Shown here: positions 1,572-51,720 of the stretch, piece after piece
How positions within the stretch are numbered: the stretch's first letter is position 1
Layout of the letters: each line of letters begins with the position of its first letter
Origin: Sporosarcina psychrophila
GTDB lineage: Bacteria > Bacillota > Bacilli > Bacillales_A > Planococcaceae
Assembly (NCBI RefSeq): GCF_001590685.1
Contig: NZ_CP014616.1
Coordinates: 84,501 to 148,500 of the forward strand
Direction: 5' to 3'
Length of the DNA: 64,000 nucleotides
Notes under the pieces: generated by a model
Database searches by the model: none
Told to the model about the DNA's origin: nothing
What the model saw: the letters and a program-made list of their open reading frames with translations, nothing else
Made by a program: the position numbers and the translations under genes

Positions 1572-1602
1572 CTCCTATCCGCGTAGGGAATTGGTGTGTA
1601 CT

Positions 1603-1772
1603 GAAATAGGCAGGTCTCCTGGCTCATGATCATCGCGTTCTTTTCCCTTCCCATTCGTAACGAACAGTGGATTTGAAAAGAGTACTCCCATTTACAGTTG
1701 CGGGACAGCGTCGGTTTTTCACCGAACTTCCCTTTTAAGCTTTTATACAAACGTAAAAAAGCACCTAATTTC
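1603..1772 (-). promoter_or_regulatory. cobalamin (B12) riboswitch
   Basis: Read on the minus strand, the segment holds the conserved blocks of the family in order: AGGTGC near the 5' end, AAAAGGGAAGTTCGGTG, the GCTGTCCCGCAACTGTAA core, CCACTG, GGGAAGG and the 3' GCCAGGAGACCTGCC. The core and B12-box matches are near consensus, so recognition is secure. Binding of adenosylcobalamin normally turns off transport or B12-biosynthesis genes. Here no such gene follows: about 180 bp downstream is a terminator and then only a 75-aa gene of unknown function. Confidence 0.93.
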
Positions 1773-1924
1773 TACACGTTATTCAGTTGTGCTTTTACTA
1801 TAACATACATATTGTCTGACTTAACACGATTGCTAAACAAGGGGTTCATTAATGGCCCATTACCGCAAATTTGAACAAGAAAATGTCTATCCCTCTTACT
1901 ATAATCAAGCTGGGGGGATAGAAA

Positions 1925-15639: not shown

Positions 15640-15757
15640 CGTTCTCATCTTCCAAACGCATACGCGTCTGTAGGAGTTGGCACAGTGTTCATTGGTCATG
15701 AACCTGTTGCCGAGATGTCATAGGGCCTGTCCCTCGATCTCTCTGGATAAGAAAGTG
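15640..15757 (-). promoter_or_regulatory. SAM-I (S-box) riboswitch upstream of metNIQ
   Basis: On the minus strand the segment starts CTTATCCAGAGAG and holds the conserved GAGGGACAGGCCCTATGA, the CGGCAACAG block and a closing GATGAGAA, the usual S-box order. A terminator hairpin follows. SAM binding should terminate transcription, so metNIQ and the M20 gene are expected to be on during methionine or SAM limitation. Confidence 0.95.
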
Positions 15758-28517: not shown

Positions 28518-28588
28518 GTATGTCATCCTATCTAAGAAAGTTCTTTCTTCTATTGTAGCGCGTCTACGGAAAATGTTCAAAACCGTGG

Positions 28589-28700
28589 AGTTGGTATTAG
28601 AAGTGCAGAGTTGCTATTAGAATCAAGAAGTTGACATTAGAAGTTCGAAGTTGCAATTAAAACCAAAAAGTTGCAATTAGAATTCGGAATTTGCAATCGG
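28589..28700. repeat. exact 20-bp-period tandem repeat
   Basis: AGTTG recurs at 28589, 28609, 28629, 28649 and 28669, and a variant (AATTTG) at 28689, each exactly 20 bp apart. The unit is AGTTGNNATTARAA plus six variable bases. It lies between the divergent rluF and trp transcription units. The conserved core with variable tail resembles the ~20-bp logic of the arrays at 10854 and 61990, although the core sequence differs. Confidence 0.85.
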
Positions 28701-28752: not shown

Positions 28753-28781
28753 TTGACAACTAACTCGCCTTGTAATACGAT
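28753..28781 (+). promoter_or_regulatory. trp operon promoter
   Basis: TTGACA (28753-28758) and TACGAT (28776-28781) are separated by 17 bp. Transcription should begin near 28788, about 370 nt upstream of trpE. Confidence 0.75.
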
Positions 28782-28803
28782 GGGAATAACATTTTACCAA
28801 AGA

Positions 28804-28834
28804 CGGGCAGAAGGTACCGAGAGCGGTGCCGCCC
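28804..28834 (+). promoter_or_regulatory. 5' hairpin of the trp leader
   Basis: GGGC...GGTACCG pairs with CGGTGCC...GCCC. It lies about 16 nt from the predicted transcript start and 4 nt before the triplet run at 28839. A 5' stem-loop in this place is also a feature of the TRAP-controlled B. subtilis trp leader. Confidence 0.6.
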
Positions 28835-28838
28835 ACGA

Positions 28839-28866
28839 TAGACGAGTTGAGAAGAGCATAGCTGAG
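28839..28866 (+). promoter_or_regulatory. TRAP-like (G/U)AG triplet run in the trp leader
   Basis: TAG, GAG, GAG, GAG, TAG and GAG begin at 28839, 28844, 28849, 28854, 28859 and 28864: six triplets with exact 2-nt spacers. A further in-phase GAG is at 28884. TRAP, an 11-subunit ring, binds (G/U)AG triplets spaced by 2-3 nt when loaded with tryptophan. The run lies between the 5' hairpin and T-box Stem I. Confidence 0.6.
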
Positions 28867-28869
28867 AAA

Positions 28870-29128
28870 TTGATGAATAAGAAGAGTAGCACAGGAGCGC
28901 GATTGTAGAGAGTCAGTGGGTGGTGAAAACTGATTCGCGGCCGGTGTGAATGGACTTATGAGAGTCTACTTGAATCGTTTTTCAAGTAGGACGTGAGATC
29001 CCACGTTACGGGATGTGTCTTATGGGCACGCTAAGTGGAAGCAGCAATGCTTCAATTAGAGGTGGCAACGCGGTCTATTCCGTCCTCTGCAATCGGACTA
29101 ATCTGTCCTTTTGCAGAGGACTTTTTTT
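28870..29128 (+). promoter_or_regulatory. trp T-box: Trp T-box leader with terminator
   Basis: Stem I starts with GATGAATAAGAAGAGTAGC and includes AGAGAG and the GGGTGGTGAAA loop. The specifier loop GTGAA-TGG-ACTT presents TGG at 28951-28953, the tryptophan codon. The T-box motif AGAGGTGGCAACGCGG is at 29058-29073. The terminator is GTCCTCTGCAA (29082-29092) pairing with TTGCAGAGGAC (29111-29121) and a T-run. Uncharged tRNA-Trp should favour antitermination and expression of trpEDCFBA. Confidence 0.95.
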
Positions 29129-29139
29129 ATACCCAAAAA

Positions 29140-29177
29140 GAGGAGAGTTGAGCTGAGATGAGTAGAGAACAGACGAG
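29140..29177 (+). promoter_or_regulatory. TRAP-like triplet run over the trpE ribosome binding site and start
   Basis: GAG occurs at 29140, 29145, 29150, 29155, 29160, 29165 and 29175, with CAG at 29170: seven of eight positions at exactly 5-nt period. The run covers GAGGAG, the ATG at 29158 and the first codons. Bound TRAP would block initiation of trpE. Confidence 0.6.
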
Positions 29178-30531
29178 TTTACGGACGACAATGAAGAAGT
29201 TAAATGGGGATTCATTAACACCCATATTGATTTTCAGAAGAATGCAGGGGCAGCGAAAGTTTTTATTAGAAAGTTCTTCGAAACATGAGGGATCAGGGCG
29301 CTACTCCTTCCTTGGGATGGATCCACTGAAGTCTTATAGCGGACGCGACGGAATACTTGAAGAACATGTTTATGCTACTGGCAAGAAATATGTACACGAG
29401 GGCGATTTGTTTGTGCTGTTGAAACGATTGATGCCGCGAATTACGGATGATATCGATTTTCCTTTCACAGGCGGAGCGGTCGGCTACGTTGGTTACGGAG
29501 CGGGTTCCGACAGTGTGACGCGTTCCCATGACGATATGGGATTTCCGGATGTTAATTTTAATATTTACGAAACCATTATTATTTTCGACCATGTGTTGAA
29601 TGAAGTGACATTGCTGCATACGGAAATTAATCCGGAACAAAGTGCTCCTGATTTGGATGCACTAGCTGAAAGTATGTTGTCCGGACCGGAAAAAGAAGAG
29701 TTGGCTTTTGCGCTCTCGGATTATAGCTGTTCTGTCACACAACAACAATTTGAAGAGTTGGTACGCGAAGCAAAAGGGTATATCGAGCAAGGAGAGGCTG
29801 AGCAAATCGTACTGTCTAGGCGTTTAGTGGCGGACTTTAACGGTGATCCATTTTCATTATACCGAAAGCTAAGAAAGCGTAATCCTTCACCTTATATGTA
29901 TTATATGGAATTCGATGATCACGTTGTTTTAGGTACGTCCCCAGAAAGTATCGTAAGTGTATCGAATGGCAAAGTGATGACGAATCCAATTGCAGGGACA
30001 CGCCGACGTGGTGTAGATAAAGCAGAAGATCTAGCACTAGAAAAAGAGTTGTTGGCGGATCCAAAAGAACTAGCGGAGCACGATATGTTGGTCGAGCTTG
30101 GACGTAATGATTTGAAGAAAGTGTGCCTTCCAGATTCTGTGCAAGTCACAAGTTATATGGAAGTCGTCCGTTACGAGCATGTCATGCACATTGTATCGGA
30201 AGCAGAGGGAACATTGTCGCCAGTGCTACATTCATTGGACGCGTTAACGGCATGTCTACCGGCGGGTACGGTAACAGGTACACCGAAAAAACGAGCAATG
30301 GAATTGATTGATGAATTGGAGAAAATGGACCGGGGTATTTACGGCGGGGCAATCGGGTATATCGGTTTCAACGGTAATATGGATTTTGCGTTGACGATCC
30401 GCACGATGGTTGTGAAAGACGGTAAAGCATACGTCCAGGCAGGAGCAGGAATTGTGCAAGCGTCAGATCCAACAGCAGAATTTATGGAAACGGCCAATAA
30501 AGCCAAGTCCTTGTTGGAAGTCATTAACTAA
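29158..30531 (+). CDS. trpE: anthranilate synthase component I
   Basis: The 457-aa enzyme makes anthranilate from chorismate with ammonia supplied by a glutamine amidotransferase subunit. It shows the N-terminal feedback-site region LLESSSKHEGSGRYSFLG and the C-terminal chorismate-binding domain with PIAGTRRRG, LLADPKELAEHDMLVELGRNDL and GTVTGTPKKRAMELID. It is shorter than B. subtilis TrpE by roughly 50 residues from memory, but the core is intact. No trpG follows; the amidotransferase is probably shared with folate synthesis (PabA) elsewhere. It is the first gene of the trp operon, under T-box and probably TRAP control. Confidence 0.95.
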   Translation: MSREQTSLRTTMKKLNGDSLTPILIFRRMQGQRKFLLESSSKHEGSGRYSFLGMDPLKSYSGRDGILEEHVYATGKKYVHEGDLFVLLKRLMPRITDDIDFPFTGGAVGYVGYGAGSDSVTRSHDDMGFPDVNFNIYETIIIFDHVLNEVTLLHTEINPEQSAPDLDALAESMLSGPEKEELAFALSDYSCSVTQQQFEELVREAKGYIEQGEAEQIVLSRRLVADFNGDPFSLYRKLRKRNPSPYMYYMEFDDHVVLGTSPESIVSVSNGKVMTNPIAGTRRRGVDKAEDLALEKELLADPKELAEHDMLVELGRNDLKKVCLPDSVQVTSYMEVVRYEHVMHIVSEAEGTLSPVLHSLDALTACLPAGTVTGTPKKRAMELIDELEKMDRGIYGGAIGYIGFNGNMDFALTIRTMVVKDGKAYVQAGAGIVQASDPTAEFMETANKAKSLLEVIN

Positions 30532-30551: not shown

Positions 30552-30608
30552 GAGAAAGAGCAGAGCAGAGGAGAGATTGAGATGAGAAGTTTTGTTAGAA
30601 GAGTAGAG
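30552..30608 (+). promoter_or_regulatory. TRAP-like triplet run over the trpD ribosome binding site and start
   Basis: (G/U)AG triplets begin at 30552, 30558, 30563, 30568, 30573, 30579, 30584, 30596, 30601 and 30606. All but one gap are 2-3 nt. The run spans the intergenic region, the GAGGAGAG ribosome binding site and the ATG at 30582, so TRAP binding would hinder trpD translation. Confidence 0.55.
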
Positions 30609-31613
30609 TTGGGCGAGCATTTAATGTATGAAGAAATGGTGGAAGCTTCTAAGTTGATGTTTAATGAACAAACCGCATCGCAGGACATAGTCGATTTCCT
30701 TGTGGCGTTGTCACGAAAAGAAGAAACGGCCCATGAAGTAGCGGCTCTTGCTTCGGTTATGAAATCGTTCGCGCTGCGGGTAAATGTTCCACGGGAAACA
30801 TTTATGGATAACTGCGGAACAGGCGGAGACGGCTCAAATACGTTCAATATTAGTACGGCATCCGCGTTCGTATTGGCAGGAGCCGGCGCATCCATCGCTA
30901 AGCATGGTAATCGGAAAGTTTCGAGTGCCGCGGGAAGTTCTGATGTATTGGAAGCCCTTGGCATTCATATAGACTTCAGCTTAGATGAAACCATCGAACT
31001 TCTTCAACAGGAAGGAATCACCTTCTTATATGCGCCAAATGTTCATCCGAAAATGAAACGAATTGGTGCAATCCGGCAGCAAATTGGCAAGCCGACTATC
31101 TTTAATCTAGTAGGTCCTTTGACAAATCCAATCCCATTGAAAACACAGTTCACGGGTATTAACAGACCGGACTTCACGATGGAATACGCATCCGTATTGC
31201 GCATGCTTGGCAGAGAGCGGGCAATTGTCGTATCGGGCGCGGGGGGAATGGACGAAGCGTCACTTGCGGGACAAAATGCATTTGTCCTTCTTGATAAAGG
31301 CGATTTGATCCCATTTTCGCTGACAGCAGATGATGTGGGGCTTGCATATGCTCCGATTTCAGCTATACGTGGAGGCGATGCGAAGGAAAATGCTGCAACC
31401 ATTCGGGCGATTTTCAATGGACGACGCGGTCCTCATTTCGATACAGTCGTTTTCAATGCAGGCATCGGATTATTTGCAAATGGGCGAGCAGCGACAATTC
31501 AAGAGGGCGTAAAACAGGCGACTGAAAGTATTTTATCTGGCAAAGCATTGCAAAAGCTTGACGCTGTCGTAGCATTCAGTCAGAAAATCGGTGCAAAGGC
31601 GGTGGCAAGATGA
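30582..31613 (+). CDS. trpD: anthranilate phosphoribosyltransferase
   Basis: The 343-aa enzyme joins anthranilate to PRPP. Key blocks are DNCGTGGDGSNTFNIST (PRPP-binding glycine loop), KHGNRKVSSAAGSSDVLEALG and NLVGPLTNP. It begins 50 bp after trpE, in an unusually GAG-rich gap that looks like a TRAP site. It ends in an ATGA overlap with trpC. A parS-like 16-mer (30785-30800) lies inside the coding sequence. Confidence 0.95.
   Translation: MRSFVRRVELGEHLMYEEMVEASKLMFNEQTASQDIVDFLVALSRKEETAHEVAALASVMKSFALRVNVPRETFMDNCGTGGDGSNTFNISTASAFVLAGAGASIAKHGNRKVSSAAGSSDVLEALGIHIDFSLDETIELLQQEGITFLYAPNVHPKMKRIGAIRQQIGKPTIFNLVGPLTNPIPLKTQFTGINRPDFTMEYASVLRMLGRERAIVVSGAGGMDEASLAGQNAFVLLDKGDLIPFSLTADDVGLAYAPISAIRGGDAKENAATIRAIFNGRRGPHFDTVVFNAGIGLFANGRAATIQEGVKQATESILSGKALQKLDAVVAFSQKIGAKAVAR
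30785..30800. promoter_or_regulatory. parS-like 16-mer within trpD
   Basis: TGTTCCACGGGAAACA differs by one base from TGTTCCACGTGAAACA, the Bacillus ParB site. It encodes part of NVPRETF in trpD, so chance or codon constraint is possible. Confidence 0.3.
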
Positions 31614-32398
31614 CGATTTTAGACAAGATTTTACACGAGAAACGGTTTGAAGTACAAGACATGTTGGCAGAGCAGGATGTACGACAAGAAGCACGTCCAG
31701 CGCGTCCGTCTTTATTCAACAAGCTATATAAAACAGAGCATTTGCAAGTCATCGCGGAAATGAAGCGCGCATCTCCTTCGAAGGGGCTTATCGCGGAAGG
31801 CGCTGATCCCGTTGCACAGGCAATTTCTTACCATCGCGCAGGTGCAGCGTGCATCTCTGTATTGACGGATAGTCACTTTTTCAAGGGGTCATTCGAAGAC
31901 CTAGCAGCTGTCGCAGACAATGTTCCTATTCCGTTGCTATGCAAGGATTTTATCATCCATCCTGTACAGATTGACCGAGCAAAAAGGGCCGGAGCCTCTG
32001 TCATCCTGTTGATTGTTGCTGCACTAACTGAAGATGAACTCGCTGAATTTCATGCCTACGCGCTACAATCTGGCTTGGAAGTATTGGTAGAAGTACATGA
32101 TGAGGCTGAACTGAAACGCGCAATTGCCATCAACGCAAAATTGATTGGTGTAAATAATCGTGATCTTCGTACATTTAAAGTGGATTTAAAGAGAACAGAA
32201 GAGATTGCAGCCCTGTTTCCGTTCGATGAAGAACGTGTCCTCATCAGCGAAAGTGGTATCTGGGAATCGGAAGATGCGTTATTTGTAGCAGATGCTGGCG
32301 CAAGTGCAGTGCTCGTTGGCGAATCGTTAATGCGAAGTGGTGAAGTCGCTACAGCTATCCAATCACTGCAAGTCGCATTACCGAGGGTAGTCCGATGA
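31610..32398 (+). CDS. trpC: indole-3-glycerol phosphate synthase
   Basis: The 262-aa (beta/alpha)8 barrel protein has the catalytic motifs VIAEMKRASPSKG, LLCKDFIIHPVQID, VEVHDEAEL and GVNNRDLRTFKVDL. It converts CdRP to indole-3-glycerol phosphate with loss of CO2 and water. It overlaps trpD and trpF by 4 bp on each side, so the three are translationally coupled. Confidence 0.95.
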   Translation: MTILDKILHEKRFEVQDMLAEQDVRQEARPARPSLFNKLYKTEHLQVIAEMKRASPSKGLIAEGADPVAQAISYHRAGAACISVLTDSHFFKGSFEDLAAVADNVPIPLLCKDFIIHPVQIDRAKRAGASVILLIVAALTEDELAEFHAYALQSGLEVLVEVHDEAELKRAIAINAKLIGVNNRDLRTFKVDLKRTEEIAALFPFDEERVLISESGIWESEDALFVADAGASAVLVGESLMRSGEVATAIQSLQVALPRVVR

Positions 32399-33009
32399 CG
32401 AAGGTAAAAATTTGTGGACTAATGGAATCACAACACGTGAAAACGGCAGTCGATGCTGGAGTAGATGCAATCGGCTTTGTCTTTGCTCCAAGCCGACGAC
32501 AAGTGACAATTGCCAAAGCGCAAGAGTTGGCAAAGAATATTCCACCTGGAGTGCTGAAGATAGGGGTATTTGTTGATGCATCACAAGATGATATTGAGCA
32601 AACTTTCCGAGAAGTACCGCTAGATTTTGTTCAATTTCATGGTGATGAAAGTTCAGATTTCATCGAAAAAGTCGGACTTCCTTCCATTAAAGTGTTATCA
32701 GTTTACAGTGATGAAGATGCAAAGCGATTCGCACACTATGAAACAGACTACTTTTTGTTTGATACACCTGGAACGGACTTTAAAGGTGGAAGCGGAAAAA
32801 CTTTTGATTGGCAACTAATGAAAGATGCTGGTGTACAATCGGACAAAGTTATTCTGGCGGGTGGACTGAACGCGGATAATGTTGCACAAGCAATCAGGAT
32901 GGTACATCCATATATGGTGGACGTTTCAAGCGGAGTAGAAGTTATGAGAAGAAAAGATGACAAGTTGATTCGCGCATTCATTAAAGCAGTCAAAGATGAG
33001 GAGAGATAA
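32395..33009 (+). CDS. trpF: phosphoribosylanthranilate isomerase
   Basis: The 204-aa barrel protein has the active-site Cys in KVKICGL, the VFAPSRRQVT loop, VQFHGDE and the phosphate-binding ILAGGLNADNV. It performs the Amadori rearrangement of PRA to CdRP. It starts in an ATGA overlap with trpC and ends 3 bp before trpB. Confidence 0.95.
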   Translation: MTKVKICGLMESQHVKTAVDAGVDAIGFVFAPSRRQVTIAKAQELAKNIPPGVLKIGVFVDASQDDIEQTFREVPLDFVQFHGDESSDFIEKVGLPSIKVLSVYSDEDAKRFAHYETDYFLFDTPGTDFKGGSGKTFDWQLMKDAGVQSDKVILAGGLNADNVAQAIRMVHPYMVDVSSGVEVMRRKDDKLIRAFIKAVKDEER

Positions 33010-33012
33010 GCA

Positions 33013-34227
33013 ATGGTACAAGAATTGGGTGCAACTCAAACTACACAGGCAGGACGATATGGACGATTTGGTGGGCAGTTTGTTCCTGAAACATTAATGA
33101 CAGCACTTATCGAACTGGAAGCTGCTTATGATGATGCGATTGCCGATCCAGCTTTCACGGACAAAGTAAATTATTACTTAAAGGATTTTGTCGGACGGGA
33201 GACGCCGCTGTACTTTGCAGAAAGACTTACTAAAGAAGCGGGCGGTGCGAAGATTTATCTCAAACGGGAAGATTTAAACCATACCGGCGCACATAAAATT
33301 AATAATACGGTTGGGCAGGCACTCCTTGCGATGCGCATGGGCAAAAAGAAAATCGTTGCGGAAACCGGGGCGGGTCAGCACGGAGTAGCGACAGCAACAG
33401 TATGTGCTTTGTTTAATCTCGAATGCGTTATTTACATGGGGAAAGAAGATATTCGCAGGCAGGAATTGAATGTGTTCCGTATGGAGTTACTTGGAGCGAA
33501 AGTCGTTTCAGTCGATAAAGGATCAGGCACACTGAAAGATGCAGTCAATGAGGCGCTGCGTTACTGGGTGGCAAATGTAGAAGACACGCATTATATATTA
33601 GGATCTGCGCTTGGTCCGCATCCATTCCCGAGAATTGTTCGTGATTTCCAACGTGTAATCGGTGTGGAAACGAGAGGACAAATTATGGAGAAAGAAGGGC
33701 GTTTGCCGGATGCAATTGTGGCGTGCATCGGCGGTGGGAGTAATGCAATCGGCATGTTCCATCCTTTTATTGATGATGAAGACGTTGCTTTGTATGGTGT
33801 TGAGGCGGCGGGAAGTGGTATTGAAACAGGACTTCACGCAGCTGCAATTGCGGATGGCAAAGAAGGCGTTCTACACGGAGCATATATGTATGTATTGCAA
33901 GACGCCGATGGATTTATCCAGGAGGCGCATTCCATTTCAGCGGGTCTCGATTACCCCGCAGTTGGTCCGGAACATAGCCATTTACATGATATCGGGCGCG
34001 TTACATACTCGTCTGTCACGGATGCGGGTGCATTGGAAGGATTGCAGTTATTGGCGAAAGTGGAAGGAATCATCCCTGCCCTTGAAAGTGCACATGCGGT
34101 TCACTATGCAGTCGAATTGGCAGGTACGATGGGGGAGGAAGAAATTCTCGTTATTTGCCTTTCAGGACGTGGCGATAAAGATGTCCAAACGGTACGCGAT
34201 GCTTTAGGAGGTGGCTTGAATGACTAA
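33013..34227 (+). CDS. trpB: tryptophan synthase beta chain
   Basis: The 404-aa PLP enzyme shows [13 protein letters not shown], the PLP-lysine motif [24 protein letters not shown], the phosphate-binding [10 protein letters not shown] and a C-terminal CLSGRGDKD. It condenses indole with serine. It has an internal channel shared with TrpA, whose gene overlaps by 8 bp. Confidence 0.96.
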
Positions 34228-35008
34228 GCAAGACTTAACTAACGCGATTACTGATTGTGTAACCCGAGGCGATAAAGCATTTGTGCCCTACATAATGGCG
34301 GGCGACGGCGGTCTTGAAACGATTAAGAAAAACATATTATTTCTCCAACAAACAGGTGTGACTGCAATCGAACTGGGTATTCCTTTTTCGGATCCGGTCG
34401 CAGATGGCCCAGTGATTGAACAAGCGGGAGAACGAGCACTTGCTAAAGGGGTAACACTTCGTAAGGTATTGAAAGAACTCACTTTATTCAAGGATGAAGT
34501 CACTGTTCCGCTTGTAATCATGACTTATTTGAATCCGATTTTGAGCTATGGCATTGATCAATTTGCGAAGGATTGCCAGAACAGCGGTATCAGTGGACTT
34601 ATTGTGCCTGACTTGCCACACGAAGAAAGTGGACTATTGCAGAATTCTCTTACAAAATCCGAGATTGCACTCATTCCACTAGTCTCGCTAACGAGCCCAC
34701 CAGAACGGATTAAGAAAATAACAGCGGCAGCTGAAGGCTTTGTGTACGCAGTGACGGTAAACGGTATTACAGGGGTGCGGGATGGATTTGGCGATGATCT
34801 TGCTGCCCATTTGGAGCAGCTGAAAGCGGTAAGTCCTGTCCCTGTACTAGCAGGGTTCGGTATTTCAACACCTGAACAGGTCCGGTCAATTGGTGCACTT
34901 GCAGACGGAGTCATTGTTGGAAGTGCGATTGTTGCTGCTTTTCATAGAAATGACTTGACGTCAGTCGAGGCATTAGTAAAAATGTCGAAAAAAGAAATAT
35001 ATAGTTAA
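34220..35008 (+). CDS. trpA: tryptophan synthase alpha chain
   Basis: The 262-aa barrel protein has [21 protein letters not shown] with the catalytic Glu/Asp, IVPDLPHEE and the phosphate-binding [10 protein letters not shown] and GVIVGSAIV. It cleaves indole-3-glycerol phosphate. It is the last gene of the trp operon and is followed by a terminator. Confidence 0.96.
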
Positions 35009-45457: not shown

Positions 45458-47169
45458 AAGTAACACACGAACAATATGCGAAAATGTTCGGCCCGACAGT
45501 AGGCGATAAAGTGCGTCTTGCTGATACGGATCTTTGGATTGAAATTGAAAAAGATTATACATCATACGGTGATGAAGGCGTTTTCGGTGGAGGGAAATCA
45601 CTTCGCGTATCGATGGGTCAAAATGGAAAAAATGTCCGCGCTGAAGGTGTTCTCGATACAGTCATTACCAACGTTATGATTATTGACCATACAGGTATTG
45701 TAAAAGCAGATATTGGTATTAAAGATGGCCGTATCATCGGAGTCGGAAAAGCAGGAAATCCGCTTACGATGGATGGTGTAGATCAGGATATGATTATCGG
45801 TGTAGGAACGGAAGTCTATGCAGGTGAAGGACTCATCGCAACAGCAGGTGCTGTCGACACGCATATTCATTTCATTAGTCCTCAGCAAGTCGAAACTGCA
45901 CTTAACGCTGGTACGACTACATTCATCGGTGGTGGGACAGGCCCGGCCGCAGGTTCGAAAGCGACGAGTTTGACGGCGGGCGAGTGGCATCTTCATAGAA
46001 TGTTACAAGCAGTTGAAGATTTACCAATCAACGTTGGGTTACTTGGAAAAGGGAGCGCATCTACAACGGAACCAATTATTGAACAAGTCCGTGCAGGTGC
46101 AATCGGTATGAAAATTCATGAAGACTGGGGTGCGACTCCAGATGCTCTTAATCAGAGTCTTATCGTTGCAGATGAATTCGATATCCAAGTCGCGCTTCAC
46201 TCCGATACGCTCAATGAAGCTGGATTTGTTGAAAATACGATTGAGGCAATTGACGGGCGTGTTATCCATATTTTCCATACAGAAGGAGCAGGCGGCGGAC
46301 ACGCGCCAGACCAACTGAAATTGGCTGCATACCCAAATATTTTGCCGGCATCGACGAATCCGACAAAACCATTTACGACAAATACAATCGATGAACATTT
46401 AGATATGCTTATGGTATGTCACCATTTGAAACACGATGTACCTGAAGATGTAGCATTCGCAGATTCACGTATTCGTCCTGAAACAATCGCTGCAGAAGAC
46501 ATTATGCAAGATCTAGGTATTCTTAGTATTATGTCATCCGATTCACAAGCGATGGGACGTGTAGGTGAAGTTACAATGCGTACGTTCCAAACAGCAAACA
46601 AAATGAAAATGCAACGCGGTCCACTTCCGCAAGACGAAGGAAAAGACAATGATAACTTCCGTGTAAAACGTTATATTTCAAAACTAAATATTAACCCAGC
46701 GATTGCACACGGAATCAGCCATGAAGTCGGTTCACTCGAAGAAGGGAAACTGGCGGATATTGTCCTTTGGGAGCCTGCGTTTTTCGGTGTGAAAGCAGAA
46801 GTTGTTATTAAAGGCGGAATTGCTGTTTACGCAATGACTGGTGATCCAAACGCGTCTATTCCAACTCCGCAACCGATGATGGGACGCCGTATGTTTGGTT
46901 TCCACGGTCAAGCACCACAACACGCGGCAATGACGTTCCTTCCTAAAATTGCAGTAGAAGAAGGCCTACCTGAAAAACTAGGTCTTAAGAAAATGATTGG
47001 TACTGTTAAAAACTGCCGTAATATTGGTAAAGCAGACATGAAACATAACAGTGAAACACCAGAAATTGACGTCAATCCAGAAACATATGAAGTGAAAATT
47101 GACGGCGTACTTGCTACGTGTGAACCAGTAAGCGTTCTCCCGATGGCACAACGTTATTTCCTGTTTTAA
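45454..47169 (+). CDS. ureC: urease alpha (catalytic) subunit
   Basis: The 571-aa subunit hydrolyses urea to ammonia and carbamate. It contains the nickel ligands in [13 protein letters not shown], the lysine to be carbamylated in [16 protein letters not shown], and the active-site flap [30 protein letters not shown] with Cys and His in place. Length is standard. The enzyme should be functional once loaded by UreEFGD. A 570-bp repeat-filled gap follows before ureE. Confidence 0.97.
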
Positions 47170-51603: not shown

Positions 51604-51720
51604 TTTCTTATCCAGAGAGGTGTAGGGACTGGCCCGATGATACCTCAGCAACAGACTTGTAAAAGTACTGTGCTAATTCCAGAAGCGTAAGTGTAATGCT
51701 TACTGCTTGGAGATGAGAAG
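51604..51720 (+). promoter_or_regulatory. SAM-I (S-box) riboswitch
   Basis: The sequence opens CTTATCCAGAGAGG, contains GTAGGGACTGGCCCGATGA and the CTCAGCAACAG block, and closes with GAGATGAGAAG. It is the second S-box in the window. The genes it precedes, a cyclase-family gene and a MetE-like gene, should be off when SAM is abundant. Confidence 0.95.

Follow-up and report, generated by a model that had tools for sequence, protein, structure and literature searches.

A trp operon leader in Sporosarcina likely to combine a T-box with TRAP-type sites in one RNA

How might a protein that senses free tryptophan and an RNA that senses tRNA charging be combined on one nascent transcript, and how do TRAP-bearing bacteria without a recognisable anti-TRAP sense the charging of tRNA-Trp? 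Textbooks present TRAP and the T-box as alternative means of trp control, and to our knowledge Bacillus subtilis links them only through a separate inhibitor gene. The trp leader of Sporosarcina psychrophila raises both questions; the initial annotation had placed the two sensors in cis within it. We analysed this leader in a 64,000-nucleotide stretch of contig NZ_CP014616.1 (hereafter the window), in the rest of the genome and in relatives. It is likely a cis-acting two-sensor switch, with a T-box for uncharged tRNA-Trp and predicted binding of TRAP to (G/U)AG triplets that would close translation of trpE and trpD.

The leader sits between a pseudouridine synthase gene on the opposite strand and trpEDCFBA, and all its elements lie on the forward strand. 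It opens with a sigma-A-type promoter, read directly (TTGACA at 28753-28758 and TACGAT at 28776-28781, with 17-nt spacing); by eye, the hairpins of relatives also have comparable promoter hexamers upstream. Just 5' of the promoter, at 28580-28700, a sequence of some 20 nt (AGTTG..ATTAGAA type) is repeated directly and imperfectly about five times, as seen by eye. The promoter is followed by a stem-loop (28805-28834; GGGC-AGAA-GGUACCG-AGAG-CGGUGCC-GCCC) made of a 4-bp lower helix, a 4-nt 5' bulge (AGAA), a 7-bp upper helix and the loop AGAG. Only 4 nt separate the end of this hairpin from an array of six triplets (28839-28866), the B. subtilis-type order of stem-loop before triplets. Direct reading of the array gives TAG GAG GAG GAG TAG GAG at 28839, 28844, 28849, 28854, 28859 and 28864, an exact 5-nt period with 2-nt spacers throughout. 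The RNA spanning hairpin and array (28788-28866) has a fold z of -2.97.

A T-box leader comes next (RF00230, 28864-29090; 113.4 bits against a gathering score of 93). Its specifier codon, identified by direct reading and by the Rfam alignment, is UGG for tryptophan (28951-28953), in agreement with the trp operon downstream. The T-box sequence AGGUGGCAACGCGG was read directly at 29060-29073, and its UGGC would pair with a tRNA ending in GCCA. An intrinsic terminator hairpin with a U run, seen by direct reading and in the predicted fold, closes the leader at 29082-29128. Thus promoter, hairpin, six exactly phased triplets, UGG T-box and terminator all stand as first annotated, upon direct reading and by Rfam. 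Elsewhere in the window, Rfam places over gathering a cobalamin riboswitch (1592-1783, reverse strand) and two SAM riboswitches (15642-15753, reverse; 51605-51719, forward). It also matches the 5' ureB sRNA at 45601-45898 on the reverse strand (65.9 bits), which may be merely conserved urease coding sequence.

The inventory of arrays was incomplete. The 5' array is real, but two others had been overlooked. Six further triplets (29140-29167) cover the Shine-Dalgarno sequence and start codon (29158) of trpE, and seven, with 2-3-nt spacers, cover the start site of trpD (30552-30586). All three arrays, of six, six and seven triplets, have the spacing of TRAP sites, that is, (G/U)AG separated by 2-3 nt. 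The gene trpE (29158-30531), for anthranilate synthase component I, has TIGR00564 as its best family, at 513.3 bits and just under the cut-off of 517.7, whereas trpD (30582-31613) matches TIGR01245 over cut-off. The operon continues with open reading frames at 31610-32398, 32395-33009, 33013-34227 and 34220-35008, which, judging by their translations, are putatively trpC, trpF, trpB and trpA.

Such triplets might be a by-product of purine-rich Shine-Dalgarno sequences and T-box flanks, unbound by TRAP, an explanation that we regard as extremely unlikely. It is true that GGAGAG, a Shine-Dalgarno sequence, occurs within the start-site arrays, and that chains of three triplets are common at starts. 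However, the longer arrays are rare and confined to trp genes and trpP. Five exactly phased triplets occur four times in the window and never in 100 dinucleotide shuffles of it, and only five times in the whole genome (4,674,191 bases). Four of these matches belong to the two arrays of six, at the 5' site and the trpE start, and the fifth lies over the start of trpP, a tryptophan transporter gene (Pfam name TrpP); the claim that phasing of this kind is improbable by chance thus holds. When spacers of 2-3 nt are allowed and both strands scanned, the window has three chains of at least five triplets, all in the trp operon. Base-shuffled array segments reached a chain of four in just 41 of 13600 trials. 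A reversed-pattern control was not clean, since GAG is unchanged by reversal, which lets the control hit true arrays. The by-product explanation is further weakened by trp leaders outside the family, discussed below, 15 of which have no such array near their T-box.

The array over trpP supports the two-sensor reading, because trpP of B. subtilis is a known target of translational control by TRAP (PMC11255114). Conversely, pabA/trpG in the window's genome has a chain of three triplets at most and no longer TRAP-type array; this differs from B. subtilis trpG and counts against the reading. Array length matters as well. Stable binding of TRAP to triplets alone is reported to take at least seven (PMC4027176), a number reached by the trpD array and missed by the 5' and trpE arrays, with six each. 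The 5' hairpin, a second array, or both would therefore probably be needed for TRAP to bind.

The initial annotation made its reading depend on the presence of mtrB, the gene for TRAP, and named rtpA, the gene for anti-TRAP, as the other gene to look for. The genome of the window has one mtrB (E 1.6e-39, with a curated equivalog match), whose product retains, at aligned positions, Glu36, Lys37, Lys56 and Arg58, the residues given as RNA contacts of TRAP in PMC4027176. The gene is present in 67 of the 68 genomes of the genus and in 260 of the 261 genomes of the family, the exception in each case being a genome that is 75% complete. Because mtrB is near-universal in the family, co-loss with the arrays offers no contrast. 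As for anti-TRAP (PF15777), no genus genome has a match over the curated cut-off (0/68); weaker matches occur in nine of them, and the window's own genome is not among these. The search was not blind, since it also gave matches in the Escherichia coli, Thermotoga and Methanosarcina controls. Several relatives (L045, L048, L050, L054, L057, L061, L089, L098 and others) have spacers between T-box and trpE that are some 150-380 nt longer than usual, in some cases with TTATGCGTGA-like or TTATGGAGTTTT-like repeats. No hidden anti-TRAP gene was recognised when the translations of 19 such longer spacers were read by eye.

If both sensors act on this RNA, the array should be kept by relatives that keep the T-box, as the initial annotation required; it is indeed conserved beside the T-box throughout the genus and at the loci sampled from the family. 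Named relatives assign the window to Sporosarcina, the best named TrpE being 96% identical. All 68 genus genomes have trpE; we fetched 67 leaders and took that of the window's genome (G000) from the window. Every leader has a T-box motif, found by regular expression, and the GAATGG specifier context. At the 5' site, 62 of the 68 have a chain of at least four triplets with 2-3-nt spacers, 49 a chain of at least five, and the remaining six have irregularly spaced chains of three. The distance from the last 5' triplet to the stem I helix is 10-13 nt in 65 of the 68 leaders. We also asked whether five-base insertions and deletions that keep the phase could serve as proof, and did not retain the argument: a single tight cluster shows the pattern clearly, with array segments of 44, 49 and 54 nt, and the overall picture is mixed.

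The hairpin is conserved as well. All 11 pairs form in 57 of the 68 leaders, the bulge starts with AG in 68 and the loop ends with AG in 67, counts that are biased toward this shape, as the parsing script took the best-scoring candidate upstream of the T-box and rewarded an AG bulge and an AG loop end. In an alignment of 40 rows (A2), 98.6% of the cells of the hairpin are paired, against at most 53.4% for slid versions. Its covariation is 0.434, compared with 0.256 after shuffling, and 46 cells are changed on both sides, compared with 14.0; none of 500 shuffles reached either value. Two other measures were no higher than in the shuffles, namely pairs changed on both sides (5 against 4.5) and further pair types (14 against 14.0). 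A2 omits 22 of the 62 distinct leaders of the larger alignment A1: 16 whose bulge of 3 nt shifts them by one base in the alignment, the irregular G026 and G054, and four near-identical rows. A1 itself omits G058 and five duplicates.

The start-site arrays are less conserved than the 5' part. We searched for chains of at least four triplets over the start of trpE and, for the trpD start, in the 300 nt after trpE. They were found in 28 and 44 of the 68 genomes, respectively, with 25 genomes having both and 21 neither. All 21 genomes of the last group have a 5' array, and the start of trpD was in view for 19 of them, lying beyond the fetched stretch in G004 and G038. Chains of three were likewise missing from both starts in 11 of the 21; several of the others have one, so a weak site may exist there. 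The retention of the 5' array without a clear start-site array, in these 21 genomes and in 10 of the 20 loci from other genera described below, suggests that the 5' site acts in some way independently of them.

These counts bear on a different use of the same sites. One TRAP ring might bridge the 5' hairpin with its six triplets, about half of the 11 sites of the ring, and the trpE array, with the T-box looped out between them; in that case the 5' array would strengthen only the repression of translation and leave the decision of the T-box untouched. The arithmetic is attractive, with six plus six triplets for 11 sites in the window's genome, six alone falling short of the reported seven (PMC4027176), and paired arrays of 5-7 triplets each in G010, G019, G020, G021, G034, G037, G041, G045, G049, G052, G053 and G067. 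We nevertheless think it rather unlikely that this is what the 5' array does, given the 21 of 68 genomes with a 5' array and no trpE or trpD chain of four (11 of them without a chain of three), the 10 of 20 other-genus loci lacking a start-site chain in the fetched stretch, and array lengths that are not anticorrelated (Spearman -0.17, p 0.16).

The arrangement of hairpin, array and T-box is not restricted to the genus. A covariance model of the hairpin, the array and the start of stem I (R1) matched 258 of the 261 family genomes at E<=0.01, with all 19 genera represented; at the stricter E<=1e-5 it still matched 252, from 18 of the 19 genera. An order-level search returned the same 261 genomes as the family search. 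Three genomes were unmatched: G129 and G131, in both of which the trpD match falls within a longer reading frame (about 545 aa), and G213, which gave no trpD at E<=1e-30. As the first part of stem I is built into R1, a weak match might come from some other T-box, and we therefore inspected loci. In a non-random sample of 20 loci from 10 other genera, chosen from the stronger matches listed, 19 carry at least four chained triplets at the 5' site, and in 10 the fetched stretch includes a start-site chain; the Rfam T-box is over gathering in 19 and scores 87.1 bits in the twentieth. We also inspected by eye another 17 matches, whose loci had all been retrieved through trpD or trpE and five of which had exceeded E 1e-5 in the family search; their arrays vary and are degenerate in some (two triplets in G232).

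One family member departs from this pattern. The trp leader of Planococcaceae bacterium Storch 2/2-2 (L192, 2238-2445) combines the hairpin with six chained triplets and gave no T-box match in Rfam; it is apparently a TRAP-only leader inside the family. Its existence lends some substance to a historical explanation, in which the 5' array and hairpin are the relic of a B. subtilis-like TRAP attenuator to which a T-box was later added, the start-site arrays alone being active now. This is very unlikely in our judgement: the covariation of the hairpin and the family-wide matches to R1 point to ongoing selection on the supposed relic, and the supposedly active arrays are the less conserved part.

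Beyond the family, no triplet chain of four was found near the T-box in 15 trp leaders that carry the T-box motif. They come from Pseudogracilibacillus, Halolactibacillus, Ornithinibacillus, Compostibacillus, Staphylococcus, Salinicoccus, a MAG and a record labelled Roseburia; a chain of four does occur in L236, but 856 nt upstream of trpE and distant from its T-box. The genomes of 14 of the 15 were searched for mtrB, which was found in five (both Halolactibacillus, Ornithinibacillus, the 'Roseburia' record and Compostibacillus) and not in the other nine. Hence the array neither belongs to the T-box itself nor has to accompany mtrB. Eight of these leaders were scanned with Rfam (L181, L183, L184, L185, L188, L189, L191 and L234), and each gave two T-box matches in tandem, both below gathering in L234. 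By comparison with these tandem leaders, the TRAP-type site of the family occupies the place of the first T-box. As a separate observation, the trpE starts of the two Halolactibacillus leaders (L183 and L185), whose genomes have mtrB, show several loosely spaced KAG triplets and no chain of three with 2-3-nt spacers; a weak TRAP site behind tandem T-boxes is possible there.

Under the preferred reading, uncharged tRNA-Trp would let transcription past the T-box terminator, while tryptophan-loaded TRAP would bind the triplet arrays and, on those at the trpE and trpD starts, block ribosomes, as it is reported to do at the starts of trpG, trpP and ycbK in B. subtilis (PMC11255114). At the 5' site, TRAP would favour T-box termination, perhaps because about 10 nt separate this site from stem I, which is transcribed later. 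Full expression would thus need uncharged tRNA-Trp plus low free tryptophan. We find an effect of 5'-bound TRAP on the decision of the T-box probable, in view of the site's position next to stem I, its earlier transcription and its persistence without clear start-site arrays. The hairpin covariation, the conservation in genus and family, and the rarity of the arrays support the reading as a whole. With mtrB present, the array conserved and no anti-TRAP over cut-off, the original proposal of both sensors in cis is, as a prediction, well supported by sequence.

The route from TRAP to terminator is less clear. Single-sequence folding of the 68 leaders, with eight structures inspected, gave no conserved pairing of the array with the T-box or an attenuator: about half of the array bases are unpaired, and the rest have variable partners, mostly other array bases or the U-rich 3' end. 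Alternative pairing between array and T-box, considered as a mechanism, was rejected for want of a conserved partner. Nor do the triplets appear to lie within an antiterminator, as in the B. subtilis attenuator, for no array-to-attenuator pairing is conserved, so that the attenuation mechanism is not simply transferable. This result, the degenerate arrays of some family members and the six genus leaders with chains of three count against the preferred reading. TRAP of B. subtilis can also cause termination without an attenuator (PMC3913778); unlike in that setting, the terminator of the Sporosarcina leader is more than 200 nt from the 5' site. More speculatively, the whole family may share one design: an 11-site TRAP ring loaded at the 5' site before stem I is made would act directly on the T-box, free tryptophan would override the tRNA signal at transcription, and TRAP would then close the trpE and trpD starts on escaped transcripts. 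The TRAP element takes the position that the first of two tandem T-boxes has in related Bacillota, and it would make anti-TRAP unnecessary. We put this extended scheme forward tentatively, as a possibility that we would not favour over its negation.

The T-box and the TRAP site are each known, and their combination in one leader is the new part. Among the matches listed in a search of titles and abstract starts in the open-licence literature, we found no leader with both, in line with the initial annotation, which knew of none; an earlier mention elsewhere is possible. A 2008 survey of T-boxes marks TRAP-bearing species and names anti-TRAP as a T-box target, and goes no further than that in the available portions of its text (PMC2494555). 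A 2025 survey of contiguous riboswitches covers tandem trp T-boxes, its main text, in the portions available, being without TRAP or Planococcaceae (PMC12452182). Both kinds of site in one RNA, model-matched in nearly all of the 261 family genomes, make a ready system for the study of combined sensing.

The comparison with known systems places this leader between several of them. Like the trp leader of B. subtilis, it has a 5' stem-loop followed by short-spaced (G/U)AG triplets in a genome with mtrB. It differs in having six triplets instead of 11 and in being followed by a T-box with its own terminator; furthermore, the start of trpE has its own array, whereas B. subtilis uses a sequestering hairpin (PMC3913778, PMC4027176 and PMC11255114). 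In contrast to the B. subtilis trp attenuator, the Sporosarcina array takes part in no conserved antiterminator pairing. The arrays over the translation starts of trpE, trpD and trpP resemble the TRAP sites of trpG, trpP and ycbK in B. subtilis, with trpE and trpD as the differing targets and pabA/trpG left with a chain of three. With the trp T-box leaders of other Bacillota, single or tandem, it shares a Trp-specific T-box with an intrinsic terminator; unlike the tandem leaders of Pseudogracilibacillus, Ornithinibacillus, Compostibacillus, Halolactibacillus and others, it has one T-box and a TRAP-type site in place of the first. Finally, as in the anti-TRAP circuit of B. subtilis, tRNA-Trp charging (through the T-box) would be combined with tryptophan (through TRAP). 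In B. subtilis, the T-box regulates another gene, which encodes an inhibitor of TRAP (PMC11255114), whereas in Sporosarcina, where 68 genomes have no anti-TRAP over cut-off, the T-box lies in cis, in the same leader as the TRAP-type site.
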